Source: Gemmatimonadota bacterium (GTDB lineage Bacteria; Gemmatimonadota; Gemmatimonadetes; Gemmatimonadales; Gemmatimonadaceae). From it: a stretch of DNA of 40,103 nucleotides. Position 1 is the first letter of the stretch, and the number at the start of each line of letters is the position of its first letter. Below the pieces are notes generated by a model. It was not told where the DNA came from. It saw only the letters and a list, made by a program, of their open reading frames with translations, and ran no database searches. Both the position numbers and the translations under genes were made by a program. This document shows positions 14,499 to 40,103 of this stretch, one piece after another. Location: positions 76,079 through 116,181 of the forward strand of contig PMYN01000033.1 in NCBI GenBank assembly GCA_003171215.1, read 5' to 3'.

Positions 14499-14502
14499 CG
14501 AC

Positions 14503-14525
14503 AGACGGCGGACGGCAGACGGCGG
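14503..14525 (+). repeat. Short direct repeat in intergenic gap
   Basis: AGACGGCGG occurs at 14503-14511 and again at 14517-14525 in the 123-base gap before the Wza-like gene. The gap also holds an AT-rich patch (14557-14573) that could contain a weak internal promoter, but no good consensus is seen. Confidence 0.5.
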
Positions 14526-14621
14526 CGCGGCGGCGACTGGCGGTGACGTGCGCCTCTAATGATCGTGTATATCGACGGGCGCCGGCGCGTCCGGTGCGGA
14601 CTTCACTATTGGATTGAGTGC

Positions 14622-15278: not shown

Positions 15279-15286
15279 GCGGGTCA

Positions 15287-18290: not shown

Positions 18291-18308
18291 CGCGGTCGCG
18301 CGAGCTCC

Positions 18309-19832: not shown

Positions 19833-20632
19833 TGGCGGCGACGAGCGAAGAGCTGTTCGCGCGCGACGCGCACCACTATTTCCAGATGGATCTCACGCCG
19901 CCGGAGCGCGTCTTCCTCGACCGCATCGGCACCCGCTGGGGATCGATCGACATGCTCGACCTGGGCGTGGGAGCCGGGCGCACCGCCTATACCTTCGGCG
20001 CCATCTGCCGCCGCTACGTGGGGATCGACTACGTGCCCCGCATGATCGAACTGTCACGATCGCGCGTGGGCGAGAGCGAACGATGTCGGTTCGAAATCGG
20101 CGACGCGCGCGACCTGTCGCGCTTCGACGACGGCGAGTTCGACGTCGTTCTGTTCAGCTTCAACGGGATGGACAACATCTCGCACGATGACCGGATGCGC
20201 GTGCTGCGCGAGGTGCGGCGCGTATTGCGGGCCGGCGGAACGTTCTTCTTTTCGTCGCATTCGCTTAACGTCTTTCCCTTCCGGCTGATCTGGCCCGAGG
20301 TCAGCTGGCGGCGGCCGTTCAAGGCACTGCGCTGGCACGGGGGCGCGGCGCGACGCTGGCTGCGACTGCGGATCGGGAACCGCTCGGTTGACGCGGCGTC
20401 GGTGCATGCGCGCGGCTGGTCGTTGCTCGTCTCCGACGCGCACGGATACGAAATGCAGATCTACCACGTGACACCGGCCGAGCAGCTCCGCCAGCTCCGC
20501 CACACGGGCTTCGCATGCGACGCAATTCTGGACCTACGCGGACGGCCGCTGGCGGACGCCGGCGCATCGCGCGATGACTGGCTCCACTACCTGTGCCACG
20601 CCGATGCGATCGGACACCCGACGACGCAATGA
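19832..20632 (+). CDS. SAM-dependent class I methyltransferase
   Basis: 266 residues from ATG 19832, which shares one base with the upstream stop (TGATG). The motif I region MLDLGVGAGRTAYTFG, then YVGIDYVPRMIELSRSR, FEIGDARDLSRFDDGEFDVVLF and the post-core LREVRRVLRAGGTFFFSSHSLN make a full Rossmann-like SAM-binding domain (Methyltransf_11/25 type). The C-terminal 100 residues (YEMQIYHVTPAEQLRQL) resemble the cap of small-molecule and sugar methyltransferases. In this context it probably methylates a sugar nucleotide, a lipid-linked intermediate or a glycan hydroxyl. Longer frames upstream overlap the polymerase gene and are not real. Confidence 0.88.
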   Translation: MAATSEELFARDAHHYFQMDLTPPERVFLDRIGTRWGSIDMLDLGVGAGRTAYTFGAICRRYVGIDYVPRMIELSRSRVGESERCRFEIGDARDLSRFDDGEFDVVLFSFNGMDNISHDDRMRVLREVRRVLRAGGTFFFSSHSLNVFPFRLIWPEVSWRRPFKALRWHGGAARRWLRLRIGNRSVDAASVHARGWSLLVSDAHGYEMQIYHVTPAEQLRQLRHTGFACDAILDLRGRPLADAGASRDDWLHYLCHADAIGHPTTQ

Positions 20633-21783
20633 GCGCACTCACCGCGCGCGTCATCGTGAACCGGGACCTCGTTGACGAGATCGTTCCCGCGTGGAACACG
20701 CTGCTGGACGATGCCGCGCAGATCGAGGTATTCTCGACTCCGGAGTGGCAACTGACGTGGCTGGATTCCTTTCCGGGCGTGTCGCCCCGGTATGTCGCGA
20801 TGTCGGACGAAACGGGACGCATGCGGGCACTCCTTCCGCTCGGGGTTCGCACCCGGCGCGTCGGGCCTTTCTCCCTGCGGGCTCTGGAACTCGGTGGCGA
20901 AGCCGTCGCGTGCGGCGATCACCTGGGGTTGATTGCATGCCCGGCGGACGCCGGCGATGCGTGGGCCGCCGCCGCACCGCTCGTGCGATCGTGCGCGGCG
21001 GAGGCCGACCTCGTCCGCTTCGCGTCGATGGATGCGGCGGAAGCGGCCGCCGCGCTTGCGGTGACATCGATGAACCCTGGGTGGGCCGCATGCCATCCGC
21101 CGGACGACGTCGCGCCGCGCATGATGCTCCCGCCGCCCACCACCGACGTGCTCGGCGCATTTCGGTCGAGCCGTCGCGCGAAGCTGCGCTACTACGAGCG
21201 GCAGTTCGCGAGTTCACATCCGTCCGCCTCGGTCGCCCTCAACGACGAGCGAATGCCGCTCGACGACGCGCTCGACGCGCTCGACGCGCTCCATGCATCG
21301 CGCTGGCGCCAGCGCGGAGAAACCGGCGTGCTCGCGGACCCGCCGTTCATGACATTCGTGCGCCGGTTCTCGAGACTCGCGCACGAGCGCGGCTGGCTCC
21401 GTCTCTATCAGATGTTCGTGGAGGATCGTGTTGTGGCGACGTTGCTGACGCTGCACCGGCGCGATGTGGCGTCGGGATGGCTGCTCGGCTGGAACCCGGC
21501 ATTCGCAAAATGGAACGTGTCGGAACTGCTCTGGCTCCACTCCGTGCGGGAGGCCGCGCGGGAGGGACTTCACACGTTCGATTTCCTGCGCGGCGGCGAG
21601 GCGTACAAATTCCGGTTCCCGGTCGAGCCTTCGGCGCTGCTCTGCCGGCAATGGACCGTGACGGCGCGAGGGAGAGTCGCGGTCGGCACGGCCTTGGCGG
21701 GGGAGCGGGTGCTCGCGTCCGCGAGGCGGTGGCGGACGCGTGCCTACCGCGTGGCGCAGAAGCTGCGCCGCGCGCCGGACTGA
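20629..21783 (+). CDS. CelD/BcsL-type (FemAB-like) GNAT acyltransferase
   Basis: 384 residues; the ATG overlaps the methyltransferase stop by 4 bases (ATGA). The protein shows the double-GNAT pattern of the Acetyltransf_6 family: an early VFSTPEWQLTWLDSF segment, RALLPLGVRTRRVGPF, and a second half with RRAKLRYYERQF, LHASRWRQRGETGVL, RLYQMFVEDRVVATLLTLH, SGWLLGWNPAFAKWNVSELLW and FDFLRGGEAYKFRF. Such proteins (CelD, BcsL, FemAB-related EPS proteins) are found in cellulose and exopolysaccharide loci and are thought to acylate or aminoacylate the polymer or a precursor. A 9-base repeat near 21264-21290 encodes an LDALDALHA helix. Donor and acceptor are unknown. Confidence 0.85.
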   Translation: MSALTARVIVNRDLVDEIVPAWNTLLDDAAQIEVFSTPEWQLTWLDSFPGVSPRYVAMSDETGRMRALLPLGVRTRRVGPFSLRALELGGEAVACGDHLGLIACPADAGDAWAAAAPLVRSCAAEADLVRFASMDAAEAAAALAVTSMNPGWAACHPPDDVAPRMMLPPPTTDVLGAFRSSRRAKLRYYERQFASSHPSASVALNDERMPLDDALDALDALHASRWRQRGETGVLADPPFMTFVRRFSRLAHERGWLRLYQMFVEDRVVATLLTLHRRDVASGWLLGWNPAFAKWNVSELLWLHSVREAAREGLHTFDFLRGGEAYKFRFPVEPSALLCRQWTVTARGRVAVGTALAGERVLASARRWRTRAYRVAQKLRRAPD

Positions 21784-21793
21784 GGCGCGGACC

Positions 21794-22744
21794 ATGCGCC
21801 CGCTGAGGTCGCTGCCCGGCGTGTGGCACGCGGCGCGCGCAGGCCGCGCGATCGCCGGCGCGCTTCGCCGCCGCTCGCGGCGCGGACTCGTGCTGCTCTA
21901 TCATCGCATCGCCGGCCCGCGGCGCGACCCGCAAATGCTCGACGTGAGGGCGAGGAATTTCGACGAGCAACTCGGCATTCTCGCGCGCACAACGACGCCG
22001 CTGCCGCTCGATGAGTTCGAATCGCTCCGCCGCTCGGGAAGTCTCCCGGCGCGCGCCGTCGCGGTGACGTTCGATGACGGGTACGCCGACAACCTGCACG
22101 CGGCCGCGCCGGCCCTGATGCGTCACGGTATTCCGGCGACGGTGTTCATCACCACGGGAATGATCGGATCGGAGCGCGAGTTCTGGTGGGACGACGTCGA
22201 GCGCATCGCGTTCGATGCACCGCTCGCGGGCGACGATCCGGCGTCGCGTCAGCGCGAGTACGCTTCGCTCGTGTCGGCGCTCCACCCGCTACCCACCGCG
22301 GTGCGCGAGCAGCGCCTGGCCGCGCTGCGCGCGTCGGCGTCCGTGCCGGAGAAGGGACGCGAGTCGCATCGGGCGCTGACTCCGGACGAATTGCGCGGCC
22401 TCGCCGCCCGGCCGCGGATCTCGATCGGCGCGCACACGATCACGCATCCGTCGCTCGCGCGGCTTTCCGTCGACGACCAGACCCGCGAGATGGCCGGGAG
22501 CACGGCGTGGCTCGAGCGGGAGCTCGGGATTCATGTGCGTGCGCTGGCCTATCCGTTCGGCACGCCCGGCGATGTATCGCGCGATACCGTGCGTGCGGCG
22601 GCTGACGTGTGCGACTACGCCATGGCAACGGACTCGGGCGCGGCTTGGAGATGGTCGCCCCGGTGGAGACTTCCTCGCGTCACCGTGCGCGACTGGGACG
22701 CCGCGCTGTTCTCGCGTCGTCTCGATGAATGGTTCGCGGAATGA
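21794..22744 (+). CDS. Polysaccharide deacetylase (NodB/CE4 family)
   Basis: 316 residues from ATG 21794. CE4 motifs: LVLLYHRIAG near the N-terminus, motif 1 VTFDDGYADN (Asp94-Asp95), motif 2 IGAHTITHPSLARLS (His214, His218 as metal ligands) and motif 3 ALAYPFGTPGD. An insertion of roughly 70 residues lies between motifs 1 and 2, common in EPS-associated members. No clear secretion signal is seen, so it may act in the cytoplasm on a precursor or carry an atypical anchor; the basic N-terminus (RAIAGALRRRSRR) is compatible with membrane association. It should remove N-acetyl groups from amino sugars. The following gene begins within its stop codon (ATGA). Confidence 0.9.
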   Translation: MRPLRSLPGVWHAARAGRAIAGALRRRSRRGLVLLYHRIAGPRRDPQMLDVRARNFDEQLGILARTTTPLPLDEFESLRRSGSLPARAVAVTFDDGYADNLHAAAPALMRHGIPATVFITTGMIGSEREFWWDDVERIAFDAPLAGDDPASRQREYASLVSALHPLPTAVREQRLAALRASASVPEKGRESHRALTPDELRGLAARPRISIGAHTITHPSLARLSVDDQTREMAGSTAWLERELGIHVRALAYPFGTPGDVSRDTVRAAADVCDYAMATDSGAAWRWSPRWRLPRVTVRDWDAALFSRRLDEWFAE

Positions 22745-26257: not shown

Positions 26258-27202
26258 ATGCCGAGACTTCCGCGGAGCCGCGTGAGCGCGACAGTGCCGG
26301 TGGCGTATTTTGCGCACAGCCGTGCCGACCTCGTCGTGCGCACGCTGGCTGCCCTGCGCGAGAACGGGGTGACGCTGATCTATGCTTTTGCTGACGGCGC
26401 GCGAAGCCCCGAAGGCCAGAAGGACGTCGATGACGTCCGGCGCATCCTCCGCTCGGTGGACTGGGCCGACCTGCACCTCGTGGAACGACCGGTGAATGTC
26501 GGAATCGATGCCGGGATCGTAGCTGGCATCTCCGAGACACTCGGCGCGCACCAGGAGGTCGTCGTCTGCGAGGACGACATCGAGATGTCTCCCGGCACGT
26601 ATGAGTATTTCGTTGCCGCCCTCGAGCGGTATCGTGACGAACCCCGCGTCATGTGCATCAGCGGATGGACGCACCCGCGCGTGACGCCGGCCGGCGCACG
26701 CGCCGCGCCGCACTTCACGGGGCGCTTCCCCTGCTGGGGATGGGCGACCTGGAGGCGGGCCTGGGCCGGATTCCCGGGGATGTCGGCGGTAGAGCTGCGC
26801 GACCGCTGCCTCGCCGCCGGGATCGACATCGGGAAGTATGGCGAAGATGTCCCCGCGATTTTCGCGGGCGACGCGGCCAAGGCGACGTGGGACTACTGCT
26901 TCAGTCTCCACATGATGCTGCATGGCGGCCTGAGCCTGTTGCCTCGGCACACGTTGACCGCGCACATCGGCTACGACGCTCGCGCGACGCACCCGCAGAA
27001 TGACGAAGGGTGGGAGGACCATCCCGAATCGCCGCCGCCGCCGGACCAGGTTCGCTGGCCGGCCGTGCGAGAGGAACCCGACAGTGCCGAATGCTGGAGG
27101 CGCGCGCTGAATGCACCGCCGCGACCATCCGTCGTTGCGCGCATCCGCCGCCGGCTCGCGCGACTGATCGCCACGCGCGCTGGGCGAGAGCCACGCGCCT
27201 GA
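26258..27202 (+). CDS. GnT-I (GT13)-like glycosyltransferase
   Basis: 314 residues from ATG 26258; a GTG at 26282 is an alternative that begins just before the conserved part. The sequence VPVAYFAHSRADLVVRTL, then RPVNVGIDAGIVAGI, VVVCEDDIEMSPGTYEYF and FPCWGWATWRRAW resembles bacterial relatives of animal N-acetylglucosaminyltransferase I, in which EDD is the metal-binding motif. The C-terminus is Pro-rich then basic (ARIRRRLARLIATRAGR), possibly a membrane-touching helix. It probably adds a sugar, perhaps an aminosugar, to the repeat unit. The 34-base gap upstream has no strong ribosome binding site. Confidence 0.82.
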   Translation: MPRLPRSRVSATVPVAYFAHSRADLVVRTLAALRENGVTLIYAFADGARSPEGQKDVDDVRRILRSVDWADLHLVERPVNVGIDAGIVAGISETLGAHQEVVVCEDDIEMSPGTYEYFVAALERYRDEPRVMCISGWTHPRVTPAGARAAPHFTGRFPCWGWATWRRAWAGFPGMSAVELRDRCLAAGIDIGKYGEDVPAIFAGDAAKATWDYCFSLHMMLHGGLSLLPRHTLTAHIGYDARATHPQNDEGWEDHPESPPPPDQVRWPAVREEPDSAECWRRALNAPPRPSVVARIRRRLARLIATRAGREPRA

Positions 27203-28203
27203 ACATCGTCTCTGCGCCAGGAGCGGGAACGCGGCCGGTCATTTCGGTGATCGTACCGTCGTACCGGCGCACGGAGTCGCTCGGGCGCTGTCTCCGGGCG
27301 ATCGCGGCGCAATCACATGTGCCGGACGAGGTGGTGGTCGGTGTCCGATCGGATGACGCGGACACGGAGTGCGCCGTCGCGTCGTTCTCGCGCACGTTTC
27401 CCTCGCCACTCCAGTGCGCGGCGACGGACGGGGCCGGCGTCGTCGCGGCGATGAACGCCGCGCTCGCCGCGTGCCGTGCGGATTCCGAAATCATCGCGCT
27501 CACGGACGACGACACGGAGCCGCATCACGACTGGATCGAGCGCCTGGCCGCCTGCTTCACCGATCCGCGCGTGGGAGGCGCGGGCGGCCGCGACTGGCAG
27601 CCCCTCGAGCGGGGCGACCGCGCCGTCGTGGGGAAGGTGCAGTGGTTCGGCCGCGTGATCGGCAACCATCATCTGGGCGCGGGACCGGCGCGCGACGTGG
27701 ACGTGCTCAAGGGTGCGAACTGCGCGTATCGCGCACGGCTGCTGCGCGCGGTCGGGTTCGACACGCGCCTCGCCGGATCCAGCGCGCAACTATTCTGGGA
27801 ACTCGCTCTCTGCCTGCCGATCCGGCGCGCGGGCTGGCGGCTGGTGTACGATCCCGCGATCGCGGTCGAGCACCACGTCGAGCCGCGCAGCGACGGTGAC
27901 CAACTGCACCGCGGCGTGTTCGCACCGGCGCCGCTCAGCGACGCGGCGTACAACGAGACGCTGGTGCTCCTCGAGAACCGGGGCGACGGCGCACGCGCGG
28001 CATTCATGATCTGGGCACTCCTGGTGGGAACGCACCACGAACCCGGGCTCGCCCAGCTCCCGAGGCTCGTGCTGCGCGGAGACCGGCACGCATTCACGCG
28101 ATGGCGGGCCGCGCTCGACGGGCGGATGCGCGGCTGGAGGCGGTGGCGCGCCGAGGGACCGGGGCCGGCCACTCTTCACGTTCCGCCGGCACCGGCGCGA
28201 TGA
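27199..28203 (+). CDS. Glycosyltransferase family 2 (apparent CTG start)
   Basis: 334 residues if it begins at CTG 27199, which overlaps the upstream stop in the same 4-base way (CTGA) as neighbouring ATGA, GTGA and TTGA junctions. The next standard start in frame, GTG 27247, would cut into the first beta strand (ISVIVPSYRR), and the nearest upstream ATG lies more than 100 bases inside the previous gene. GT-A motifs: SVIVPSYRRTESLGRCL, EIIALTDDDTEPHHDWIE (DDD metal site), VLKGANCAYRARLLRAVGFD and a C-terminal acceptor region with FWELALCLPIRRAGWRL and a histidine-containing AVEHHVEPR. The family assignment is firm, the exact start is not. Confidence 0.87.
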   Translation: MNIVSAPGAGTRPVISVIVPSYRRTESLGRCLRAIAAQSHVPDEVVVGVRSDDADTECAVASFSRTFPSPLQCAATDGAGVVAAMNAALAACRADSEIIALTDDDTEPHHDWIERLAACFTDPRVGGAGGRDWQPLERGDRAVVGKVQWFGRVIGNHHLGAGPARDVDVLKGANCAYRARLLRAVGFDTRLAGSSAQLFWELALCLPIRRAGWRLVYDPAIAVEHHVEPRSDGDQLHRGVFAPAPLSDAAYNETLVLLENRGDGARAAFMIWALLVGTHHEPGLAQLPRLVLRGDRHAFTRWRAALDGRMRGWRRWRAEGPGPATLHVPPAPAR

Positions 28204-29318
28204 AGCCGCTCCGGGTCCTCGTCGTCATGCCGCTGGGCACCGCCCTGGGCGGCGGTGAGTCGATGCTGCGACAGCTGCTCGTGCACGGCCGCGGCCAGGA
28301 CGTGGAATGGATCGTGGTGTTCCTGCGCGACGGGCCGATGGTCGCGGAGATGCGCGCGCTCGGACTCGACGTTCACGTCATCGAGGCCGGCCGCTTTCGC
28401 CACGTGACCGCTCGCATCCGGGCGATCCGAAAGGTCGCGCGGCTCGCCAAGTCGAGCGGCGCTGACGTCGTGCTCGGCTGGATGGTCGCCGGCCAGCTCA
28501 CCGCCGGCTCCGCGGCGCTGATCGCGGGACTTCCGTGCGTGTGGTTCCAGGTCGGCACGCCGCGGCCCGACTGGCTCGACCGCCTCGCGACCCTGCTCCC
28601 CGCACGAGGCGTGCTCGTGCTGTCGCGCGCCGCCGCCGCGGCGCAGGCGCGCGTGTGGCCGCGCCGGCGCCAATGGCTCGTGTATCCCGGCGTGCCGCTC
28701 GACGCGTTCGATCCATCGCGGCTGCCCGCGCCCACGGTCGTGCGATCGAAGCTTCGATTGCCGGCGCAGGGTCCGCTGATCGGCATGGTCGGGCGGCTCC
28801 AGCGATGGAAGGGCATGCACGTGTTCATCGCCGCGATGGCGCGCGTGCACTGGTCACGTCCCGGCGTGCGAGCGGTGATCGTCGGCGGTCCGCACGAGAC
28901 GGAGCCGCGATACGCCTCCGAACTGCGCGCGCAAGCAAGCTTGCTCGGCCTCAGCGACGTCATCACCTTCGCGGGTTTCCAGACCAACATCCCCGAGTGG
29001 ATGCAGGCGATGGACGTCTTCGTGCATGCGTCGGACCGTGAACCGTTCGGCATTGTATTGATCGAAGCGATGGCGCTCGGGAAGCCGGTGATCGCGGGGT
29101 CCGGGGGCGGACCAGCCGAGATCATCACCGATGGGGAGAACGGGCTCCTCGTGCCGTACGGCGACGTCGGGTCGCTCGCGCATGCCATCCTGCGGTACCT
29201 TGATGACGACGCGTTCGCGGCGCGGGTCGGCGCGGCGGCACGGAACCGCGCGGCGGTCTTCGACGACCGGACCTACGCGGCGAACGTCATCGCGGCATTG
29301 CGGGAGTGCGTCTCCTGA
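28200..29318 (+). CDS. Glycosyltransferase family 4
   Basis: 372 residues, ATG 28200 overlapping the previous stop (ATGA). GT-B features: VMPLGTALGGGESMLRQLL, DVVLGWMVAGQL, VYPGVPLDAFDPSRL, IGMVGRLQRWKGMHVFIAA and SDREPFGIVLIEAMALGKPVIAG with the paired acid residues, then ENGLLVPYGD. It is a typical cytoplasmic-face transferase using a nucleotide sugar. The 67-base gap after it is the longest in this part of the locus. Confidence 0.92.
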   Translation: MKPLRVLVVMPLGTALGGGESMLRQLLVHGRGQDVEWIVVFLRDGPMVAEMRALGLDVHVIEAGRFRHVTARIRAIRKVARLAKSSGADVVLGWMVAGQLTAGSAALIAGLPCVWFQVGTPRPDWLDRLATLLPARGVLVLSRAAAAAQARVWPRRRQWLVYPGVPLDAFDPSRLPAPTVVRSKLRLPAQGPLIGMVGRLQRWKGMHVFIAAMARVHWSRPGVRAVIVGGPHETEPRYASELRAQASLLGLSDVITFAGFQTNIPEWMQAMDVFVHASDREPFGIVLIEAMALGKPVIAGSGGGPAEIITDGENGLLVPYGDVGSLAHAILRYLDDDAFAARVGAAARNRAAVFDDRTYAANVIAALRECVS

Positions 29319-29385
29319 TTCCACCGTCAGCATGGCCGTTGATCATCGTGGAGGTTCCGGGCTGCGACCGGCCGCCGGCGGTGCC

Positions 29386-30552
29386 ATGAGAAACTTCTCG
29401 CTGGCATTCATCGCCGACGCCGTGCACCGTCGCGGAGGCCAGGAACGTGCGGCCGCCGAGGTGCTGTCTCGTATATCGCGGCGCATTTCCGTGACCGTCA
29501 TCGCGAAGGAATGCGACCTCGGCGATGCGCCCGTCCGCTGGATCCCGGTTCGCGCGCCGCGGCGCCCCTCGGTGCTGCGCACGTGGGCGTTCGCGCGCGC
29601 AGCACGTGCCGCTGAACATCGCGCGAACTGTACGATCACGAACAGCATCGGCGCGGCGGCGCGGGACGCGGACGTCATCACGGCGCAGTTCTGCCACGCG
29701 GCGTTCACCGCGCGCTTCGGCGGAATCCGCGGCGGCTCGGGCCTGCGAGCGGCGTACCAGCGATTCGCGCAATCGCGATTCACAGCGGACGAGCGCCGGG
29801 CGTATTCGTCTCCGAGGCTGAAGCGCGTGATCGCGGTGTCGGAGGGCACGGCCCGCGAGCTGCAGGAATTCTACCACGTGCCCCGGGAGCTGATCGCCGT
29901 CGTGCCGAACGGAGTGGACGGCGCGGTGTTCCGCCCGGCGGCCGACGCGGCGGCACGGCGCGCGCTTCGCGAGCGGCTGTCGCTGCCGGCGGGCGAGTTC
30001 ATCGCGCTGTTCGTGGGTGGTGATTGGGAACGGAAGGGCGTTCGCGACGCGATCGCGGCGATCACCGGCCTCACCGGGACGCGGCTCGTGATCCTCGGCA
30101 CCGGTGACGTAGGCGCGATGAAGGCGCACGCGATCAAGCTCGGCGCGGAACGCCAGGTCATGTTTCCCGGCGCGTCGCGCGCGCCGCAGGACTGGTACGC
30201 GGCGTGCGACGCGTTCGTCTTCCCGTCGCGTTACGAGGCGTTCTCGCTCGTCACGCTCGAAGCCGCGGCGTCGGGACTTCCGATCGTCGCGCACGCCATC
30301 AACGGCACCGAGGAGCTCGTGCGCGACGGGGAGAACGGCTGGCTCGTTCCGTTCGGCGCCCACGCGCTGCGCGAGAAGATCGAGCTCCTGCGCGACGATC
30401 CGGCGCGCCGAGCGCGGATGTCGGCCGCCGCGGTCGCGTCGTCGCGCCGGTACGACTGGGACCGGATCGCCGATGAACAGTTCACCGTGTTCCAGGCCGC
30501 GGCGACGCTCGCGACCGGCGGCGCCACGAGCAGCGCGCGGAGCGCACCGTAG
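29386..30552 (+). CDS. Glycosyltransferase family 4
   Basis: 388 residues from ATG 29386 (MRNFSLAFIAD). An in-frame ATG at 29332 adds 18 residues that do not look like the family and is less likely. Motifs: RRGGQERAAAEVL, ITAQFCHAAF, VIAVSEGTARELQEFY, VVPNGVDGAVF, FIALFVGGDWERKGVRDAI, and FPSRYEAFSLVTLEAAASGLPIVAH with the acid pair, then ENGWLVPFGAHAL. The Cys/His-containing segment QFCHAAFTARF and the following ERRAYSSPRLKRVIAVSEG resemble heptose/glucosyl GT4 enzymes such as WaaG; that closer match is tentative. One base separates its TAG from the next ATG. Confidence 0.9.
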   Translation: MRNFSLAFIADAVHRRGGQERAAAEVLSRISRRISVTVIAKECDLGDAPVRWIPVRAPRRPSVLRTWAFARAARAAEHRANCTITNSIGAAARDADVITAQFCHAAFTARFGGIRGGSGLRAAYQRFAQSRFTADERRAYSSPRLKRVIAVSEGTARELQEFYHVPRELIAVVPNGVDGAVFRPAADAAARRALRERLSLPAGEFIALFVGGDWERKGVRDAIAAITGLTGTRLVILGTGDVGAMKAHAIKLGAERQVMFPGASRAPQDWYAACDAFVFPSRYEAFSLVTLEAAASGLPIVAHAINGTEELVRDGENGWLVPFGAHALREKIELLRDDPARRARMSAAAVASSRRYDWDRIADEQFTVFQAAATLATGGATSSARSAP

Positions 30553-30553
30553 C

Positions 30554-33500
30554 ATGTGCGGCATCATCGGAGTCGTGCAGGACGGCGCGGCGCAGTCGCG
30601 GGAGCGGCTCGTCGCTGCGCGCGAGCTCATGTGGCAGCGCGGTCCGAACGACGCGGGCGTCTGGGCCGGCGAGCACGCATGCCTCGGCGCACGCCGCCTC
30701 TCGATCATCGACCTCTCGAGCGCCGGCCACCAGCCGATGATCAGCGACGATCGCCGGCGCGTGCTCGTGTTCAACGGCGAGATCTACAACTTCCACGAAC
30801 TTCGCCGCGAGCTCGAGCCCGACTTCGCGTTCCGGTCGCACACGGACGGCGAGGTGATCCTGCACGGCTACCGGCGCTGGGGACTGCCGGGGCTGCTCAG
30901 CCGCCTGGCGGGCATGTTCGCGTTCGCGCTCTGGGACGAGGACCGGCGGATGCTGTTCGCCGCGCGCGACCGCGTGGGCAAGAAGCCGTTCCTCTTCCGG
31001 CACGAGGGACGCACACTGCACTTCGCGTCGACGCACAACGCGTTGCTCGCCTTGCTGCCGGGGACGCCGCCGCTCAATCCGCACGCCGTGGACGCGTTCC
31101 TCGTCTACCAGGCCGTGCCGGCGCCGCTCTCCGTCTTCCGCGGCGTCACGCGGCTCCTGCCGGCGCATTCCCTCGTATTCTCATCCGACACCGGCACGTG
31201 CGTCGTCGAGCGCTACTGGGACGTGTCGTACGCGAAGAAGACGCGCGAATCCGAACCGGAGGTGCTGGAGCACGTCGAGTCGCTGGCGCGCGAAGCCGTC
31301 CGCAAGCGGCTCGAGAGCGACGTGCCCGTGGGCGTGTTCCTCTCCGGGGGTGTCGATTCCTCTCTGATCGCCGGCCTTGCGGCGCGCGAAAGTTCAAAAC
31401 CGATCGAGGCGGTGACGCTCGGATTCGACGAACCGGAATTCGACGAGCGCGCGTACGCGCGCAAGGTCACGGATCATCTGGGCATGCGGCTGCACGAGGA
31501 GACGCTGCGTCCCGCGCTCGTCGCCGACCTGCCGGCCATCGTGTGGCACTACGGCCAGCCCGTCGCCGACGTCTCGATCGTGCCGAACCACTATCTCGCA
31601 CAGGCGGCCCGCCGCTGGATGACTGTCGCGCTCAACGGTGACGGCGGCGATGAACTCTTCGGCGGCTACGCACGCCCGATGCTCGCGCGCGTCGCGGCGC
31701 CGTATCGTCGCCTGCTCCCGCAGTCCGTGCGTTCGGCGGTGTCGCGCGCGCTCCGGGACCGTGACAGCGGGCCGCTGCGCCGCCTGGCGCTCCTCGCGCG
31801 CGCCGGCGGCGAGTCCGCCGCCGAGAGCTTCACCTACGATCGCGGCTTCCGGCTTTTCCGTGCGGAAGCGTACCCTGAGGCGTTTCTCGCATCGCTCGGC
31901 GACACCAATCCCGACGCGATGTACCGCGAGGTCTGGGACCGGGCCGACGGCACGGACGACGTCGATCGCGCGCTGTACGGCGACTTCAGCACCTATTTGC
32001 CGGATCAGCTGCTCGTGAAGGCGGACCGCGCATCGATGGCGCACGGTCTCGAGGCGCGCTCGCCGCTCCTCGATCGCGCCCTGATCGAATACGCCGCGAC
32101 GATTCCGACCTCGATTCGCCTCAAGCATTTCGAGACGAAATACGTGCTGAAGAAGCTGGCCGAGCGCTACGTGCCCCGCTCGGTGATCTACCGGCGCAAG
32201 AAAGGCTTCGTGATGCCGGCCTCGCGATGGCTGCGCGGCGAGCTCTCGCCCTACGTGCGAGCGGCGCTGGACAGCCGCACGTTCTTCGACCGCGGATGGG
32301 TTCGGCCCGAATTCGTGCGCCGCATTCTCGCGGAGCACTTCACCGGCCAGCACGACTGGGGCGAGCAGCTCTGGACGCTGCTGGTGCTCGAGGTGTGGGC
32401 CCGTCTCACGCTCGATCGCACGCTCGAACGCGACGAGCAGATGGACGCGCTGCTGCGCAAGCCCGAGCGTCCACGCCGAGCGACAGTCCGCACGCTGCAG
32501 CTCGGGATGGAGTGGTTCCCGGAGAAGCCCGGCGGGCTGAATCGCGTCTATTTCGAGCTGATCAAGCACCTGCCGCAGGCCAACGTGGAGGTGCAGGGAC
32601 TCGTTGCGGGCACCGCCCAGGTCACGCAGGACTCCGGCGGAATGATCGAAGGATTCGCGCCCCGTTCCGAATCGTTGCTGCCCCGCTTGCTCGCGGTTCG
32701 ACGGCTCGCCGTTCCAATGTTGCGCAGCGACCCCAAGCTGCTCGTCGTCTCCCACTTCTCGCTTTACACAGCTCCCGTAATCGACGCCCTCGCCGGCCAT
32801 CCGATGGTCGTCCATTTCCAGGGGCCGTGGGGACTCGAGGGCGGAGCCGAGCGCCAGTCGCGACTCACCGTTCGGGTGAAGACCGCTGTCGAGCGGGCCG
32901 TCTATCGCCGCGCGAGCGCATTCATCGTCCTCTCGCGGCCGTTCGGCCAGATTCTCGAACGCCGCTTCGGTATCCCGCCCGACAAGATCCACGTGATACC
33001 AGGCGGTGTGGACGTGTCGCGCTTCGCGATCCGGGAATCACGCGCGGAGAGCCGCACCAAACTGGGATGGCCGCAGGACCGACCCATCGTGCTCGCCGTC
33101 CGCCGCCTGACGCGCCGCATGGGGCTGGACGACCTCGTTCGCGCGGCGCTGCGTCTCCGCGAGCGAGTGCCGAACGTGCTCGTGCTGATCGCCGGCGACG
33201 GACCGGTCAAGGGAGAACTCGAGCGGCAGATCGTGTCGCTTGACCTCGAGCAGAACGTGCGCCTGCTGGGCTTCGTGCCGGACGCCGACCTGCCGTTTGC
33301 GTATCGCGCTGCCGACCTGACCGTCGTGCCAACCGTGACGCTCGAGGGATTCGGGCTGATCGTCCCGGAGTCTCTCGCGGCAGGCACCCCGTGTTTCGTA
33401 ACGCCGGTCGGTGGACTTCCCGAGGCGGTGAGCGGCCTCTCGCGCGCGCTCGTACTGCCGTCGACGGGCGCCGAGGCGATCGCCGACGGGCTCGCCGGCG

Positions 33501-33622
33501 CACTCATGGGAGTGACGCCGCTGCCGAGTGCGCGCGAGTGCGTCGATTTCGCGCGGAGGAACTACGACTGGCCGGTCATCGCGGAGCGCGTGCGGCTCGT
33601 GTACGAGGAGGCGCTGCGTTGA
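30554..33622 (+). CDS. Asparagine synthase (AsnB) fused to a GT4 glycosyltransferase
   Basis: 1022 residues in one uninterrupted frame. Residues 1 to about 640 are a complete glutamine-hydrolysing asparagine synthase: N-terminal nucleophile Cys2 (MCGIIGVVQ), RGPNDAG, FNGEIYNF, HTDGEVILHGY, then the ATP-binding SGGVDSS at 264-270, NGDGGDELFGGY, ADRASMAHGLEARSPLLD and a C-terminal RRKKGFVMP. From about residue 643 a GT4 enzyme begins: LQLGMEWFPEKPGGLNRVYFEL, VVHFQGPWGLEG, VIPGGVDVSRFA, IVLAVRRLTRRMGLDDLV and TLEGFGLIVPESLAAGTP. AsnB-like amidotransferases in polysaccharide loci are thought to amidate uronic or other acidic sugars. A fusion would couple amidation to sugar transfer. Homologues usually appear as two genes, so this is either a true fusion or a lost stop between neighbours; the frame and codon use stay regular through the junction. 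Confidence 0.9.
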   Translation: MCGIIGVVQDGAAQSRERLVAARELMWQRGPNDAGVWAGEHACLGARRLSIIDLSSAGHQPMISDDRRRVLVFNGEIYNFHELRRELEPDFAFRSHTDGEVILHGYRRWGLPGLLSRLAGMFAFALWDEDRRMLFAARDRVGKKPFLFRHEGRTLHFASTHNALLALLPGTPPLNPHAVDAFLVYQAVPAPLSVFRGVTRLLPAHSLVFSSDTGTCVVERYWDVSYAKKTRESEPEVLEHVESLAREAVRKRLESDVPVGVFLSGGVDSSLIAGLAARESSKPIEAVTLGFDEPEFDERAYARKVTDHLGMRLHEETLRPALVADLPAIVWHYGQPVADVSIVPNHYLAQAARRWMTVALNGDGGDELFGGYARPMLARVAAPYRRLLPQSVRSAVSRALRDRDSGPLRRLALLARAGGESAAESFTYDRGFRLFRAEAYPEAFLASLGDTNPDAMYREVWDRADGTDDVDRALYGDFSTYLPDQLLVKADRASMAHGLEARSPLLDRALIEYAATIPTSIRLKHFETKYVLKKLAERYVPRSVIYRRKKGFVMPASRWLRGELSPYVRAALDSRTFFDRGWVRPEFVRRILAEHFTGQHDWGEQLWTLLVLEVWARLTLDRTLERDEQMDALLRKPERPRRATVRTLQLGMEWFPEKPGGLNRVYFELIKHLPQANVEVQGLVAGTAQVTQDSGGMIEGFAPRSESLLPRLLAVRRLAVPMLRSDPKLLVVSHFSLYTAPVIDALAGHPMVVHFQGPWGLEGGAERQSRLTVRVKTAVERAVYRRASAFIVLSRPFGQILERRFGIPPDKIHVIPGGVDVSRFAIRESRAESRTKLGWPQDRPIVLAVRRLTRRMGLDDLVRAALRLRERVPNVLVLIAGDGPVKGELERQIVSLDLEQNVRLLGFVPDADLPFAYRAADLTVVPTVTLEGFGLIVPESLAAGTPCFVTPVGGLPEAVSGLSRALVLPSTGAEAIADGLAGALMGVTPLPSARECVDFARRNYDWPVIAERVRLVYEEALR
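33605..33621 (+). promoter_or_regulatory. Strong ribosome binding site deciding a TTG start
   Basis: GAGGAGG at 33605-33611 is followed after seven bases by TTG at 33619-33621. This Shine-Dalgarno match inside the end of the AsnB-GT4 gene makes TTG the start of the next gene, in a TTGA overlap with the upstream stop. Confidence 0.7.
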
Positions 33623-34809
33623 GCGGGAGCGGCTCTGCGACGAGCGAGAGCGGCGCCGCGTCGAGCGAGAGCGGCGTCCTCTTCGTCGATCACGCCGGCG
33701 TCCTGGGCGGCGCCGAGCTCTCGCTGCTCGATCTCGCCGCGGCGTTCGGCGCCGGCTCCGAAACGCTGCTGCTCGCCGAAGGACCGTTTCGCACCGCCCT
33801 CGAGTCGCGCGGCGTGAAGGTGAGCGTGGAACCCCTCGGCGCGCTGAAGCACGTGAAGAAGGAAACGCGCCTGCCGGGCCCCGCCGCATTCACCGATGCC
33901 GTACGCATCGCGCGCCGCGTCGCGCGGCGTGCGAAGCCGCACAAGGTGATCTACGCGAACTCGCAGAAGGCCTTCGTGGTGGCCGCCGCAGCGGGACTGC
34001 TCGCACGGCGACCCGTGGTGTGGCACCTGCGCGACATCCTTGCGCCGCCGCACTTCAGCGGGACGAACGTGCGCGCCGCCGTCACGCTCGCAAACCTCCG
34101 TGCGGCGCGCGTGATCACGAACTCGCGCGCCACCGCGGCGGCGTTCATGGCGGCGGGCGGCCACGCATCGCTCGTACGGGTCGTGCACAACGGAATCGAC
34201 CCCGCGCCGTTCGACGCCGTGACGCCGGCCGCCGCCGCTGCCACGCGAGCGGCGCTCGGCGTTCCGGCGGACGCGTTCGTCGTGGCGCTGTTCGGCCGTT
34301 TCCATCCGTGGAAGGGACAGCAGGTGCTGCTCGACGCGCTCACGCGGCTGCCCCGGGTGCACGCGCTCTTCGTCGGTGCGCCGCTCTTCGGCGAGGAGGC
34401 GTTCGCGTCCGCGCTGCAGGCGCAGGCGGCGAAGACCGGCGTGGCGGATCGCGCGCACTTTCTCGGATTCCGTGCCGACGTGCCCGAACTCATGCGCGCG
34501 TCGGACGCCGTCGTTCATGCGTCCGTCTATCCCGAACCCTTCGGGCGCGTGATCGTCGAGGGAATGCTCGCGGGGCGGCCGGTGATTGCGACGCGCGCGG
34601 GCGGCGTCACGGAAATCGTCGACGACGAAACCGGTGTGCTCGTTCCGCCGAACGACGCCGAGGCACTGGCACGGGCGATCGAGTCGCTCGCAGGCGATCC
34701 CGGGCACGCCGCGGCCATGGCCGCGCGCGGTGCCGCGAGGGCGCGCAAGGAGTTCACCGTCGCGGCGATGGTGCGGGGCGTGGAAGACGCGATGCGCGAC
34801 CTGCTGTGA
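33619..34809 (+). CDS. Glycosyltransferase family 4 with Ser/Gly-rich leader
   Basis: 396 residues from TTG 33619. The first 18 residues are Ser/Gly/Ala-rich (SGSGSATSESGAASSESG), encoded by two copies of a 15-base sequence 21 bases apart (33641 and 33662), before the fold proper starts at VLFVDHAGVLGGAELSLLDL. Further motifs: VIYANSQKAFVVAAAAGLL, VVWHLRDILAPPHF, VVHNGIDPAPFDA, VALFGRFHPWKGQQVLLDAL and VYPEPFGRVIVEGMLAGRPVIATRAGG with the acid pair, then ETGVLVPPNDAEAL. A further nucleotide-sugar transferase of the locus. Its stop overlaps the acyltransferase start (GTGA). Confidence 0.9.
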   Translation: MSGSGSATSESGAASSESGVLFVDHAGVLGGAELSLLDLAAAFGAGSETLLLAEGPFRTALESRGVKVSVEPLGALKHVKKETRLPGPAAFTDAVRIARRVARRAKPHKVIYANSQKAFVVAAAAGLLARRPVVWHLRDILAPPHFSGTNVRAAVTLANLRAARVITNSRATAAAFMAAGGHASLVRVVHNGIDPAPFDAVTPAAAAATRAALGVPADAFVVALFGRFHPWKGQQVLLDALTRLPRVHALFVGAPLFGEEAFASALQAQAAKTGVADRAHFLGFRADVPELMRASDAVVHASVYPEPFGRVIVEGMLAGRPVIATRAGGVTEIVDDETGVLVPPNDAEALARAIESLAGDPGHAAAMAARGAARARKEFTVAAMVRGVEDAMRDLL

Positions 34810-36764
34810 GTTCGGCCGCGACGCGAAGTCCATCGATTTCGTCCGCAGCCAATCACCGCGAGGACCTGGACGGATTGCGCGCCGTCGCGGTGCTCGCGGT
34901 GGTCGTGCATCACGCCAGTCCGCGGATCCTTCCCGGCGGATTCATCGGCGTCGATGTCTTCTTCGTGATATCGGGTTTCCTGATCACGTCGATCATCCTT
35001 CGGGATCTCGATGCCGGAACGTTCTCGTTCGCCGGATTCTACGAACGCCGGGTGCGGCGGCTGGTCCCGAACCTGACGGTGCTGCTGGTGTTCTGCTCGT
35101 GCGTCGCCTGGTTCCTGCTGCTCCCCTCCGATTTCCGGAACTACGCGAAAAGCCTGTTCAGCACGACCACGTTCACGTCGAACATGTTCTTCTGGCGCGA
35201 CTCGTGGTACTTCGCGGCGCCGTCGCAAACCAAGCCGCTGCTGCACACGTGGTCGCTGGCTATCGAGGAACAGTACTACCTGCTCTTTCCGGTGATCCTG
35301 TGGGCACTCAAATGCTACTTGCCCAAGCGCATCCGCATCGTGTGCATCTTCGGGTTCGCGGCATCGCTCGCCCTGAGTATCTGGGCAGTGCGAAATGCTC
35401 CGGCGGCGGCTTTCTATCTCCTGCCATCACGCGCGTGGGAGTTGTTGCTCGGGTCCGTGCTGGTCGTAGGCGTGCTGCCGAAGACCGAGTCGATCCGTGC
35501 GCTGGAGGTACTCTCCGCCGCCGGGTTGATCGCGGTCGTCGCGGCGACGCTGATCTTCGACACCTCCACTCCGCTTCCAGGCGTGGCCGCGCTTCTCCCA
35601 TGCGCCGGGGCGGCGCTGGTGATCTACGCAGGCACCGTGCCCAACGTCACGATGGTGCGCCGCCTGCTGAGCTGGCGACCGCTCGTGTTCGCCGGGTTGA
35701 TGTCGTATTCCCTCTACCTCTGGCACTGGCCGCTGCTGGCTTTTGCGCGGTATTATTTCCTCTCGGGGCTCACGACGGGTGCGACGCTGCTGTTCGTCTG
35801 TCTGTCGCTGCTTCTCGCTTATCTCGCATGGCGATTCGTCGAGCAGCCGGTTCGAGCGAGAACGCTCCTGATGAAGCGACGGCACCTCGTGATCGCATTC
35901 GGGGCGAGCTCCGCGGTCCTGCTGCTGTTCGCGGCCGCCGGAGATCGATCGGGAGGGTGGGCGCAACGATTCGGACGGATCCCGATCATCGACTACGACA
36001 GCGTCGTGGCCGACATCGGCCGCGATGCGACCGGCGGCTGTTTTCTGCCGGCGAGCCGGAATGCCTCGTGGAATGCTGCCGCCTGCACGTACGCTTCTGC
36101 AGCCGGCACTCCCGGCGACGGGTCTCGCCGAATCTTCCTGATCGGCGACAGTTTTGCGGCGCAGTTCTCGATCTGGCTGAAACTGAACTTTCCCGGCACG
36201 GTGGTCGAGCTGACGTCGTCAGCGTGCCCGCCGCTGTTCGATTTCGTGCATGAGGTGCGTCCGCGCTGGTGCACGGCGATCAACGCGATGCGAGAAGAGG
36301 CGCTGCGCACGCAACACTTCACCGACGTGTTCCTCGGTGCGTGGTGGGGTCAGACACAAAACCCGGAGACGATGCGCGCCCTCGAGCGAACGGTGCATCG
36401 CATTCTGGATTCCGGCGTGTCGCGCGTCACGGTGCTGGGTACCGCGCCGCACTTTCGGGACTCGCCGGTCGACATCGTGAACCGCCAGCGAGTATTCGGC
36501 CGGCCGGTAGTGGACGCTCTGCCGGCGGACGTGTATGCCGAATACCGCGGCACACTGGATCGCATTTCGAGGCTGAACGGCGTCCGGGTTCTCAATGTCG
36601 ATGATTGGGTCTGCCGGAGCGGGGCGTGCCCCTATATGCTCAACGGAGAGTTGCTGTTCGTCGATGGCGCCGCGCACCTGACGCGCTCAGGCGTTCGATA
36701 CGTCATGGCGCAGGCAGACTGGATCAGCACCCAACCCGCATCATCGCAATCAGTTCGACGGTGA
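34806..36764 (+). CDS. OafA-like acyltransferase-3 fused to SGNH domain
   Basis: 652 residues from GTG 34806. The N-terminal 350 or so residues are an acyltransferase-3 membrane domain: HREDLDGLRAVAVLAVVVHH (the conserved Arg and His), GGFIGVDVFFVISGFLITSII, TWSLAIEEQYYLLFPVILW and about ten helices including SLYLWHWPLL and a FVEQPVR segment. A linker helix leads to a periplasmic SGNH hydrolase-like domain with IGDSFAAQ (Ser449 the likely nucleophile) and the VDGAAHLT pair (Asp620, His624). The two-domain design is that of bacterial O-acetyltransferases of LPS, peptidoglycan and exopolysaccharide: the membrane part receives acyl groups from acyl-CoA and the SGNH part transfers them to sugar hydroxyls. 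It is thus a probable polymer O-acetylase. Confidence 0.93.
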   Translation: MSSAATRSPSISSAANHREDLDGLRAVAVLAVVVHHASPRILPGGFIGVDVFFVISGFLITSIILRDLDAGTFSFAGFYERRVRRLVPNLTVLLVFCSCVAWFLLLPSDFRNYAKSLFSTTTFTSNMFFWRDSWYFAAPSQTKPLLHTWSLAIEEQYYLLFPVILWALKCYLPKRIRIVCIFGFAASLALSIWAVRNAPAAAFYLLPSRAWELLLGSVLVVGVLPKTESIRALEVLSAAGLIAVVAATLIFDTSTPLPGVAALLPCAGAALVIYAGTVPNVTMVRRLLSWRPLVFAGLMSYSLYLWHWPLLAFARYYFLSGLTTGATLLFVCLSLLLAYLAWRFVEQPVRARTLLMKRRHLVIAFGASSAVLLLFAAAGDRSGGWAQRFGRIPIIDYDSVVADIGRDATGGCFLPASRNASWNAAACTYASAAGTPGDGSRRIFLIGDSFAAQFSIWLKLNFPGTVVELTSSACPPLFDFVHEVRPRWCTAINAMREEALRTQHFTDVFLGAWWGQTQNPETMRALERTVHRILDSGVSRVTVLGTAPHFRDSPVDIVNRQRVFGRPVVDALPADVYAEYRGTLDRISRLNGVRVLNVDDWVCRSGACPYMLNGELLFVDGAAHLTRSGVRYVMAQADWISTQPASSQSVRR

Positions 36765-37598: not shown

Positions 37599-38723
37599 AT
37601 GGGCTGGAAGGGAGCGCTCATCGAAGGGCCGCTGGCGATCGCAAGCCGCCTTGCTGCGCCGTGGGGTCCGCTTGCTGCGACGCCACGGGAAATCCTCGTC
37701 ATTCGCCCGAACGACCTCGGCGACCTGCACACGACGACGCCCGCCTTCGCGGCGCTGCGCCGCCGGTTTCCGTCGAGTCGCATCGTGGCCGCCGTCGGGT
37801 CGTGGGGCAGCGCCGTGCTCACGGGCAATCCCAACGTCGATGAAGTGGTCGAACTCGACGCGCCATGGAACAACAAGTTCGTGGCCGACCAGTCGTGGCG
37901 GGCGATCGCGAGGTTCCTGTGGAAGTCGGAGCAGGTGCGCTCTCTGCGTCGCCGGGGTGGTTTCGACGTGGGGATCGACGTGCTCGGCAGTCACGTCGGT
38001 GCACTGCTCATGATGCGGTTGGGCGTCCGCTATCGCATCGGTGTGCGCGGCTATCGCGGCGGCTGGTCGGCATGCCAGCGTTACATCCGATTCTCCGATC
38101 GGGTGCACGTCGCTCGCGCGGCGTTGAATCAGGTGGCGTTGCTCGGGGCGACGGAACTGCCGGACGCGATCCCGCAGCTGTTCCTATCCGAATCGGAGCG
38201 GCGGGATGCCGAGCGAATGTGGGGTGAACGTCGGCACGGCACCGCGCGGCTGATCGTCGGATCCGGAGGAGGGCTGGCCGGGAAGTGCTGGCCCACCGAT
38301 CAAATGGCCGGTGCGTTGGCGAGCCTCACGCGGACGCTGCGCCGGGGTGAATCACCAGCTGTCGACGTGCTCCTGGTGGGCGGCGCCGCCGACCGGGATC
38401 CGGGCCGTCGGATCGTCGAGCTCACCGGAGGCGCCGTGAGATCCGTGTGCGGTGAGACATCCTTGCGATCGACGTTCGCGCTCTGCGCCGGCGCGGACGC
38501 GGTGCTGACGAATGCGAGCATGCTGTCGCACACGGCCGCGGCCTTTCGCAAACCGACCGTCGTCGTGCTCGGCGGGATGCATCAGGACCAGGAGGCCTAT
38601 GATCGCTTGTGGGGGTATCCTGCGCCGTATCGAAGCGTCGGTCCCGCGAGCGCGGCAGAGCGCGAGCGTGGATGGCCGGGTGTCGAGTCCGTCGCGGGGG
38701 CCGTGCTATCGTGCCTGCGGTGA
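37599..38723 (+). CDS. Glycosyltransferase family 9 (heptosyltransferase-like)
   Basis: 374 residues. ILVIRPNDLGDLHTTTPAFAALRRRFP is the typical N-terminal loop of GT9 enzymes, followed by NPNVDEVVELD. The donor domain has VGSGGGLAGKCWPTDQMAGAL, where family members usually carry a KxWP sequence, and TNASMLSHTAAAFRKPTVVVLGGMHQD, where the common acidic residue before the Ser/Gly is replaced (TNAS). GT9 enzymes transfer heptose from ADP-heptose, or other sugars in polysaccharide loci. The gene ends on top of the last codons of the convergent GT2 gene. Confidence 0.88.
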   Translation: MGWKGALIEGPLAIASRLAAPWGPLAATPREILVIRPNDLGDLHTTTPAFAALRRRFPSSRIVAAVGSWGSAVLTGNPNVDEVVELDAPWNNKFVADQSWRAIARFLWKSEQVRSLRRRGGFDVGIDVLGSHVGALLMMRLGVRYRIGVRGYRGGWSACQRYIRFSDRVHVARAALNQVALLGATELPDAIPQLFLSESERRDAERMWGERRHGTARLIVGSGGGLAGKCWPTDQMAGALASLTRTLRRGESPAVDVLLVGGAADRDPGRRIVELTGGAVRSVCGETSLRSTFALCAGADAVLTNASMLSHTAAAFRKPTVVVLGGMHQDQEAYDRLWGYPAPYRSVGPASAAERERGWPGVESVAGAVLSCLR

Positions 38724-39581
38724 CGCGGCGACAATCGCGCGCACCTGCTGTCGCCAGCGATTCCAATAGAGCAGCATCACTCCGATTTCCACGACGGCAG
38801 AGATCTCCGCGCTCACGCCATCGGCGCTGAACGGCGCGCGCGCGATCGCGTGCAATCGTCCTCTCGCGACGGCGCGCAGGTTGCCAGGCAGCGTGTGCGG
38901 TTGATGGTGAATGGCCGAGAACAGCATATGCGCGAGATGCCACGGAGCCGTGTCGGCACCCCAGCGCTCGCGGCGCGGCGGATGATCCACGATGGCCTTC
39001 GGCGCGAAACGCCACGACAGCTTCGCGGCGAACGCCCGCTCGCGGAGATCGGCGTCTTCCATGTGCGGCACGGTGAACCGTTCGTCGAACCCACCGATCG
39101 TGTCGAAGGCCTCTCGACGAATGGCGAGATTCGAGGTCCACCATCGTCCGCCCAATTCGTTGACCGGTGCATGCTCCCTTGGCGACCGCACGCCGATCCT
39201 GCAGACCGTACGCCCTTCCACCGCTTGCACGCCATCGCTCGCGGCAAGCAGCTGCTCGAGCCAATCGCGGTCGGGAAGCGTGTCGTCGTCGGTGAAGGCA
39301 ATCCACTCGCCGCGCGAGGCGCGCACTCCGGCGTTGCGGTTCGCGGCTGGTCCGCGGCGCGGTCCCGCGGCGTATGCCGCCCAGGGAAACCGCTCGGCGA
39401 GCAGCGCGCGCGCGTCGCCGGTGTCGCCGTCGTCGGCGACGACGACTTCGTATCGCGTCGCATCGAGTGTCTGCGCGCCGGGCGCCAGCTGCTGGAGGCA
39501 GGACGCGAGCGACGCCGGCCGGTGCCGCGTGGGGATCACCACCGAAATGCGCGGCGCGGCCGGAGCCGCCGGGTCACCCAT
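38706..39581 (-). CDS. Glycosyltransferase family 2
   Basis: 291 residues on the minus strand, from ATG 39581. GT-A motifs: ISVVIPTRHRPASLASCL, EVVVADDGDTGDARAL, WIAFTDDDTLPDRDWLEQLL (metal-binding DDD), WWTSNLAIRREAFDTIGGFDERF and HMEDADLRERAF. After these comes a hydrophobic C-terminal segment (AEISAVVEIGVMLLYWNRW), a possible membrane anchor. The last 18 bases overlap the 3' end of the GT9 gene on the other strand. The start has no nearby ribosome binding site; a 19-codon frame ends eight bases inside it, so coupled translation is possible. It appears to be a separate minus-strand unit with the gene to its right. Confidence 0.9.
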   Translation of the reverse strand: MGDPAAPAAPRISVVIPTRHRPASLASCLQQLAPGAQTLDATRYEVVVADDGDTGDARALLAERFPWAAYAAGPRRGPAANRNAGVRASRGEWIAFTDDDTLPDRDWLEQLLAASDGVQAVEGRTVCRIGVRSPREHAPVNELGGRWWTSNLAIRREAFDTIGGFDERFTVPHMEDADLRERAFAAKLSWRFAPKAIVDHPPRRERWGADTAPWHLAHMLFSAIHHQPHTLPGNLRAVARGRLHAIARAPFSADGVSAEISAVVEIGVMLLYWNRWRQQVRAIVAASPQAR

Positions 39582-39649
39582 CGGCGGGGTCGTTCCACGC
39601 GAGGCCTTGCCGCCACGCCTTGCGATCGAACATCAGCGAGAGCTCGCGG

Positions 39650-40103
39650 CTAAGGCGCGAGCTTGAACCCGCCGACACCCAGCGACAGCCGCAGGAAACT
39701 TCCGACCGGTCCCGCATCGGGCGCGCCGACGACATTTCGTCCCTCGTACGTCCATGCGGTGCGGTGCGGCGAGATGGTTGTGCCGAAGCGCATGCCGAAC
39801 GTGACGCCCACGTGCGACTTTTCGGAGCGAAGCATCAGGAAATCGAGACCGATGCCCGGCTGAAACACCGAGTACGAACCCGTGATGTTGCTGGAGAATC
39901 CCGGGCTGGCGAGGATGTCGTCGAACAGCGGATCGACGCTCGTGCCGACGGTGGCGCCGCCGTTTCGGTCGCTGACCGTGATCTTCGTCGTCCCCATGCC
40001 CACGCCGAGGAACCCGACGAAGTTGAACCTCCACGTCGTGTACAACGCGTAGCCCACCGTCCCCATCCAGTAGTGGCTGTGCATCTTGTTCGTGCGGCCG
40101 GTG
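39650..40103 (-). CDS. Beta-barrel-like exported protein, C-terminal part (runs off right edge)
   Basis: The frame is open to the window edge; the ATG at 40084 (in the first complete stretch) may be internal because the codons before it (TGRTNK) are also open. At least 151 residues are visible. They show alternating polar/hydrophobic strands with aromatic and Gly residues (YALYTTWRFNFVGFLGVGMG, SYSVFQPGIGLDFLM, SHVGVTFGMRFGTTI, SFLRLSLGVGGFKL), as in outer-membrane beta-barrels. The family is not identified. It ends with Pro, not the aromatic residue common at the end of barrel proteins. It lies upstream of and on the same strand as the GT2 gene, 68 bases away. Confidence 0.6.
   Translation of the reverse strand, partial: TGRTNKMHSHYWMGTVGYALYTTWRFNFVGFLGVGMGTTKITVSDRNGGATVGTSVDPLFDDILASPGFSSNITGSYSVFQPGIGLDFLMLRSEKSHVGVTFGMRFGTTISPHRTAWTYEGRNVVGAPDAGPVGSFLRLSLGVGGFKLAP

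Follow-up and report, generated by a model that had tools for sequence, protein, structure and literature searches.

A putative bifunctional AsnB-GT4 fusion protein in a polysaccharide locus of the Gemmatimonadota

In the 40,103-nucleotide stretch of Gemmatimonadota DNA analyzed here (the window), one reading frame joins a complete class II glutamine amidotransferase of the AsnB type (residues 1 to 617) to a complete GT4 glycosyltransferase (residues 644 to 1022). The fusion recurs at full length at 17 loci among 179 genomes of the same family, spread over four genera of mostly uncultured bacteria. We lean toward the reading that the fused protein is a bifunctional repeat-unit enzyme, which amidates a uronic acid and adds the adjacent sugar during synthesis of a Wzy-dependent exopolysaccharide. 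Both halves are of a known kind and often lie in adjacent genes; the single-chain form is apparently unreported, and we found no published account of such an AsnB-GT4 fusion in the open-access literature.

Architecture and conservation of the fused protein

Translation and Pfam searches agree with the preliminary description of this DNA, which had proposed a single frame of 1022 codons encoding an AsnB with Cys2 and SGGVDSS and then a full GT4; a stop codon or frameshift at the junction was sought by translation, and none was found. The ATG of the fused gene lies one base past the TAG (30550-30552) that ends the upstream GT4 gene. Four Pfam domains follow one another in the protein, namely GATase_7 (4.3e-39, residues 47-166), Asn_synthase (3.2e-96, residues 241-617), Glyco_transf_4 (1.6e-19, residues 659-823), and Glycos_transf_1 (9.6e-32, residues 830-984). 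The AsnB half scores 133.8 and 323.5 bits against PF13537 and PF00733, for which the cut-offs are 25 and 21, and its PP-loop, SGGVDSS, occupies residues 264-270 (window 31343-31363). The GT4 half is assigned to its class by both Pfam domains and an E-x7-E motif (residues 931-939; window 33344-33370).

Table 1. Features of the polysaccharide locus and of the fused gene, in window coordinates
Feature	Position	Strand	Remarks
Initiation/export module: sugar phosphotransferase, Wza-like, Wzc-like, and Wzy-like genes	13023-19832	+	
GNAT/FemAB-like (PF13480) gene of the polysaccharide locus	20593-21783	+	
Polysaccharide deacetylase gene of the polysaccharide locus	21740-22744	+	
GT2 gene	27010-28203	+	43-50% identical to Burkholderia, Azospirillum, Skermanella, and Deinococcus GT2s near a BceK-like GT4
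GT4 gene directly upstream of the fusion	29131-30552	+	Start codon uncertain; adjoins the fusion in most relatives
AsnB-type amidotransferase-GT4 fused gene	30554-33622	+	1022 residues plus stop; starts MCGIIG
Glutaminase (class II GATase) half	30554-31153	+	Residues ~1-200
Synthetase (PF00733) half	31274-32404	+	Residues 241-617
Linker	32420-32482	+	Residues ~623-643; pLDDT <50; sequence and length variable, always in frame
GT4 domain, GT-B fold, BceK-like	32483-33619	+	Residues 644-1022
GT4 gene directly downstream	33619-34809	+	Start codon uncertain; place kept whether the locus is fused, split, or GT4-only
Acyltransferase-3 plus SGNH gene (probable O-acylation)	34800-36764	+	Start approximate

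The mechanism of class II amidotransferases needs Cys2, exposed through removal of the initiator methionine. This residue, together with R48, N74, G75, D98, and the SGG-DS of the PP-loop, is invariant in 20 proteins (the 17 fused proteins and three from split loci), as are D366 and E367; D363 is kept in 19 of the 20. The fused proteins also have K549 and both GT4 glutamates, 931 and 939, without exception. Across the 17 fused proteins, invariant positions number 188 of 620 in the AsnB half and 99 of 371 in the GT4 half but only 2 of 25 in the linker. One fused protein (L078, from genome G139) has a tyrosine at position 363, which aligns with Glu348 of E. coli AsnB. Beta-lactam synthetase likewise has a tyrosine at the Glu348-equivalent position, and the chemistry of the G139 copy may differ.

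An AlphaFold model of the fused protein has a mean pLDDT of 82.7 and a pTM of 0.61, with both domains confident. The linker is predicted to be disordered, and at this pTM no fixed interface between the domains is predicted. The structures that Foldseek matches are TsnB9, AsnB, and ASNS for the first half and the GT-B enzymes MshA, PimB', and HepE for the second; among the 50 chains listed, none covers both halves.

Distribution of the fused, split, and GT4-only forms

The search for AsnB-GT4 fusions with the same junction that the preliminary description called for returned the 17 full-length loci, each with the linker in frame and counted only after six-frame translation had been split at stops. 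Ten belong to the genus of the window (18 genomes searched), five to genus g13, and one each to g35 and g44. Identity to the window protein is 62-86% for the nine further fusions of its own genus and 56-62% for the seven from the other three genera. Four more genomes (G011, G147, G156, and G029) gave partial matches, of which at least some are truncated where a contig stops. With relatives in four genera carrying the fusion, the prospect that close relatives would all have two separate genes does not hold, and the presence of the fusion in many independent genomes rules out an assembly or sequencing artefact. Measured from anchor to anchor, the linkers of the fused relatives span 30, 34, 36, 39, 42, or 45 residues, so every difference in length preserves the reading frame. 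Neither chance nor sequencing error can account for several such in-frame changes in many separate assemblies, and retention of the frame despite them argues that the fused protein is made as one chain.

Other members of the family have the same components in other arrangements. In genus g14 (G030, G064, and G065), the same AsnB and GT4 proteins are encoded by neighboring genes; the AsnB stop and the GT4 start overlap as ATGA in G030 and G065, and extra sequence separates the two genes in G064. The rpoB of the G064 genome (L171) groups with another family, and on that sequence the genome may be a mixed bin. In five g47 genomes and in G024, the GT4 (48-56% identical) is not preceded by an AsnB. 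The order in g47 is otherwise unchanged, with the fusion-type GT4 between counterparts of the GT4 genes at 29131 and 33619; in G024, the GT4 sits in a different setting. Because the GT4 occurs without AsnB in these genomes, transfer cannot in general require amidation, and the existence of fused, split, and GT4-only loci indicates that the locus treats AsnB as an optional module.

An AsnB-GT4 pair of overlapping or adjacent genes is the probable source of the fused form, or else a form interchangeable with it. In the AsnB tree, the fused protein of G072 falls outside the split genus; the GT4 tree lacks resolution, and in the rpoB tree, the GT4-only g47 is nested in the clade of fused genera. 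These placements leave room for repeated fusion, for fission, and for transfer alike: the fusion may have happened once, with fission and loss of AsnB afterwards, or several times, or the genes may have been transferred.

We sampled 395 genomes of Gemmatimonadota (of which the family that has the fusion makes up well over a third), 297 of Acidobacteriota, and 249 of Pseudomonadota. Outside the family, no fusion was seen in approximately 800 sampled genomes among the top matches listed, a ranking by score that might miss a fusion to a very different GT4, and among plasmid records none covers 80% of the fused protein. An AsnB gene adjoining a separate GT4 gene is common outside the family, and in one Acidobacteriota locus (L138) and four of Pseudomonadota (L151, L152, L154, and L155), the two share a reading frame that is interrupted by one stop codon. 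Such pairs, in g14 as in the Acidobacteriota and Pseudomonadota, have the same enzyme types in the same order as the window, but they are two genes, and beyond the Gemmatimonadota, the GT4 is only distantly related. The earlier statement that AsnB and GT4 are separate genes elsewhere is thus borne out by the g14 pairs and by the interrupted AsnB-GT4 arrangements of the other two phyla.

Several apparent fusions were rejected. Frames of approximately 1030 residues in Pseudomonadota (G741, G860, G795, and G764) and Acidobacteriota (G569) are in fact an AsnB, a stop, and a GT4. Long frames at other AsnBs (L107-L126, L144-L146, and L157-L159) proved on retranslation to be GC-rich N-terminal read-through with the AsnB last. 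A match on an Azospirillum B510 plasmid to residues 546-1022 is an annotated standalone GT4, the extra matching part being the preceding O-antigen ligase gene.

Relatives of the two halves

Standalone GT4s of Burkholderia, Azospirillum, Skermanella, and Deinococcus share 46-56% identity with the GT4 half, which is far closer to them than to the other glycosyltransferases of its own genome. The match of the GT4 half to a BceK-like GT4 of Burkholderia reaches 55.6% identity over 100% of the half. The Burkholderia cluster also shares other genes with the window locus (GT2, 43% identical; Wzy, 31%) and runs in the order sugar phosphotransferase, UDP-glucose dehydrogenase, Wza, Wzc, GT2, GT4, Wzy, GT4, BceK-like GT4. 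This order fits the published list of the cepacian genes bceB-K (PMC7378592), and since the matching GT4 comes last, it is BceK by position. The UDP-glucose dehydrogenase and the bce-I order rule out the alternative assignment of this Burkholderia locus to the Bep cluster. By sequence and gene order, then, the GT4 half is an ortholog of BceK, a name that comes from the order of genes in an unannotated record. Cepacian BceK resembles the entire GT4 half and lies in a cluster with related GT2, Wzy, and Wzc proteins, but it is a standalone protein with no AsnB before it, whereas the GT4 of the window is fused to one. The cepacian polymer includes glucuronic acid.

For the AsnB half, which is the sole full-length AsnB in the genome of the window, the best NCBIfam model is TIGR03108 (eps_aminotran_1, the XrtA/PEP-CTERM system amidotransferase), although its 522.5 bits fall under the cut-off of 816.9, so that it does not rank as a member. 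The same model scores best for the AsnBs of G072, G139, and G152, the split G030, and the outgroup G384. The cut-off of TIGR01536 (asn_synth_AEB) is exceeded, with 440 bits against 267.1, but this model is broad and says little on substrate. The uronamide makers WbpS and WbqG have been placed in the TIGR03108 family, and deletion of the WbpS of Porphyromonas gingivalis, PGN_1234, converts glucuronamide to glucuronic acid as seen by mass spectrometry; that study did not decide if WbpS acts on the nucleotide sugar, on the acceptor, or on the product (PMC7468200). In a biofilm locus of Rubrivivax, a wbpS-like gene is flanked by two group-1 glycosyltransferase genes, and its mutation alters growth mode and colony form (PMC3684757). 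WbpS, WbqG, and PGN_1234 share with the window protein the order of GATase and Asn_synthase domains and a place in polysaccharide loci with GT4 genes adjoining. Unlike these standalone proteins, the window protein has a C-terminal GT4, and its uronamide function is putative.

E. coli AsnB (1CT9) and TsnB9 (7YLZ) agree with the N-terminal half in fold and in catalytic framework but are without a glycosyltransferase domain. NGDGGDE in the window protein (361-367) aligns with SGEGSDE, an acidic motif of the E. coli enzyme. At its aspartate site, E. coli AsnB has TTIRAS (TTVRAS in the human enzyme); a weak phmmer alignment pairs this stretch with ADVSIV in the window protein, which may not have kept it. 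Six positions are invariant in the clade of 20 proteins and different in most of 40 other AsnBs, among them Q335, which is glutamate in most of the others and lies beside the acceptor loop.

Proposed function and alternatives

We infer the amide and its site, which carboxyl group is the substrate, which of the two steps comes first, and whether they are coupled. In the reading that we favor, the N-terminal half would hydrolyze glutamine at Cys2 and spend the released ammonia, with ATP, on amidating a carboxylate. The carboxylate would most likely belong to a uronic acid, and the product would then be a uronamide, as made by WbpS and WbqG. The C-terminal half would add a sugar onto the same lipid-linked repeat unit, and the flexible linker would tether the halves one to one, such that the amide would be set where and when the sugar joins. 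The conserved fusion suggests that the slime polymer carries amidated sugars. The preliminary description had placed the amide probably on a uronic acid, a proposal that the sub-cut-off proximity to TIGR03108 and the BceK orthology favor; counting against it, no nucleotide-sugar dehydrogenase gene occurs in the polysaccharide locus or on the contig of the window. The genome does have two such genes, in tandem on another contig, and the pair is present in 17 of the 18 genomes of the genus, with or without the fusion, so uronic precursors are likely to be available, unlinked to the fused gene. The same description had amidation accompany sugar transfer. The fusion suggests such coupling, but the same GT4 stands at the same locus without AsnB, and we consider quite unlikely a strict form in which the freshly amidated sugar or acceptor passes directly to the protein's own glycosyltransferase site, with amidation and chain building obligatorily coupled.

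The AsnB half could instead amidate an amino-acid carboxylate borne by a sugar, placed there for example by the PF13480 protein, or another carboxylate substituent. The PF13480 and deacetylase genes of the locus do form a set resembling VimA, VimE, and the amidotransferase of Wbp/Vim and PEP-CTERM loci, and the six clade-specific positions, Q335 included, hint at a different acceptor; yet in stretches of 10-19 kb around the fusion in relatives, the FemAB-like gene was not detected and the deacetylase was found only in some, so neither is tied to the fusion, and we regard this substrate as unlikely. Still less probable is that overlapping genes gave rise to the fusion as a neutral by-product, with halves that work independently and a linkage without function. 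The disordered, unconserved linker and the pTM of 0.61 with no fixed interface would fit, as would the relatives in split and GT4-only states, but the single frame has been kept across four genera through the changes in linker length. It is quite unlikely that an ordinary asparagine synthetase, serving asparagine supply, became fused to a GT4 by happenstance. Passage of the TIGR01536 cut-off and the lack of a second full-length AsnB in the genome speak for that role; the position of the gene inside a polysaccharide locus speaks against it, and the ADVSIV opposite E. coli TTIRAS (in the weak alignment) may do so too. Moreover, only short PP-loop matches, and no complete AsnB, occur in two genomes of the genus (G009 and G010), which means that the genus can do without the fused AsnB for its asparagine.

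A polymer whose uronic acids are amidated changes in its charge, in how it binds metals, and in how it gels. The fusion of an amidotransferase to a glycosyltransferase is a pointer to the sugar addition with which the amide is paired, which clusters of separate genes do not, and here it steers the search for the AsnB substrate to the glucuronic acid/BceK step. Relatives whose locus is fused, split, or AsnB-less provide a natural comparison. Polysaccharides of the Gemmatimonadota appear to be little studied, as full-text literature on the phylum together with exopolysaccharide and asparagine synthase yielded only a soil biofertilizer study.

Two further observations concern other genes of the window. 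Upstream of the locus, at 6614-9164 (+), a D12-class adenine DNA methyltransferase gene precedes a DUF2779/Cas4-like gene, and the two may form a pair for DNA modification or defense. A GT2 gene (PF00535, 2.3e-20) lies at 38706-39581 on the minus strand, opposite to the direction of the locus, and the plus-strand frame over it (38850-39653) is probably spurious.
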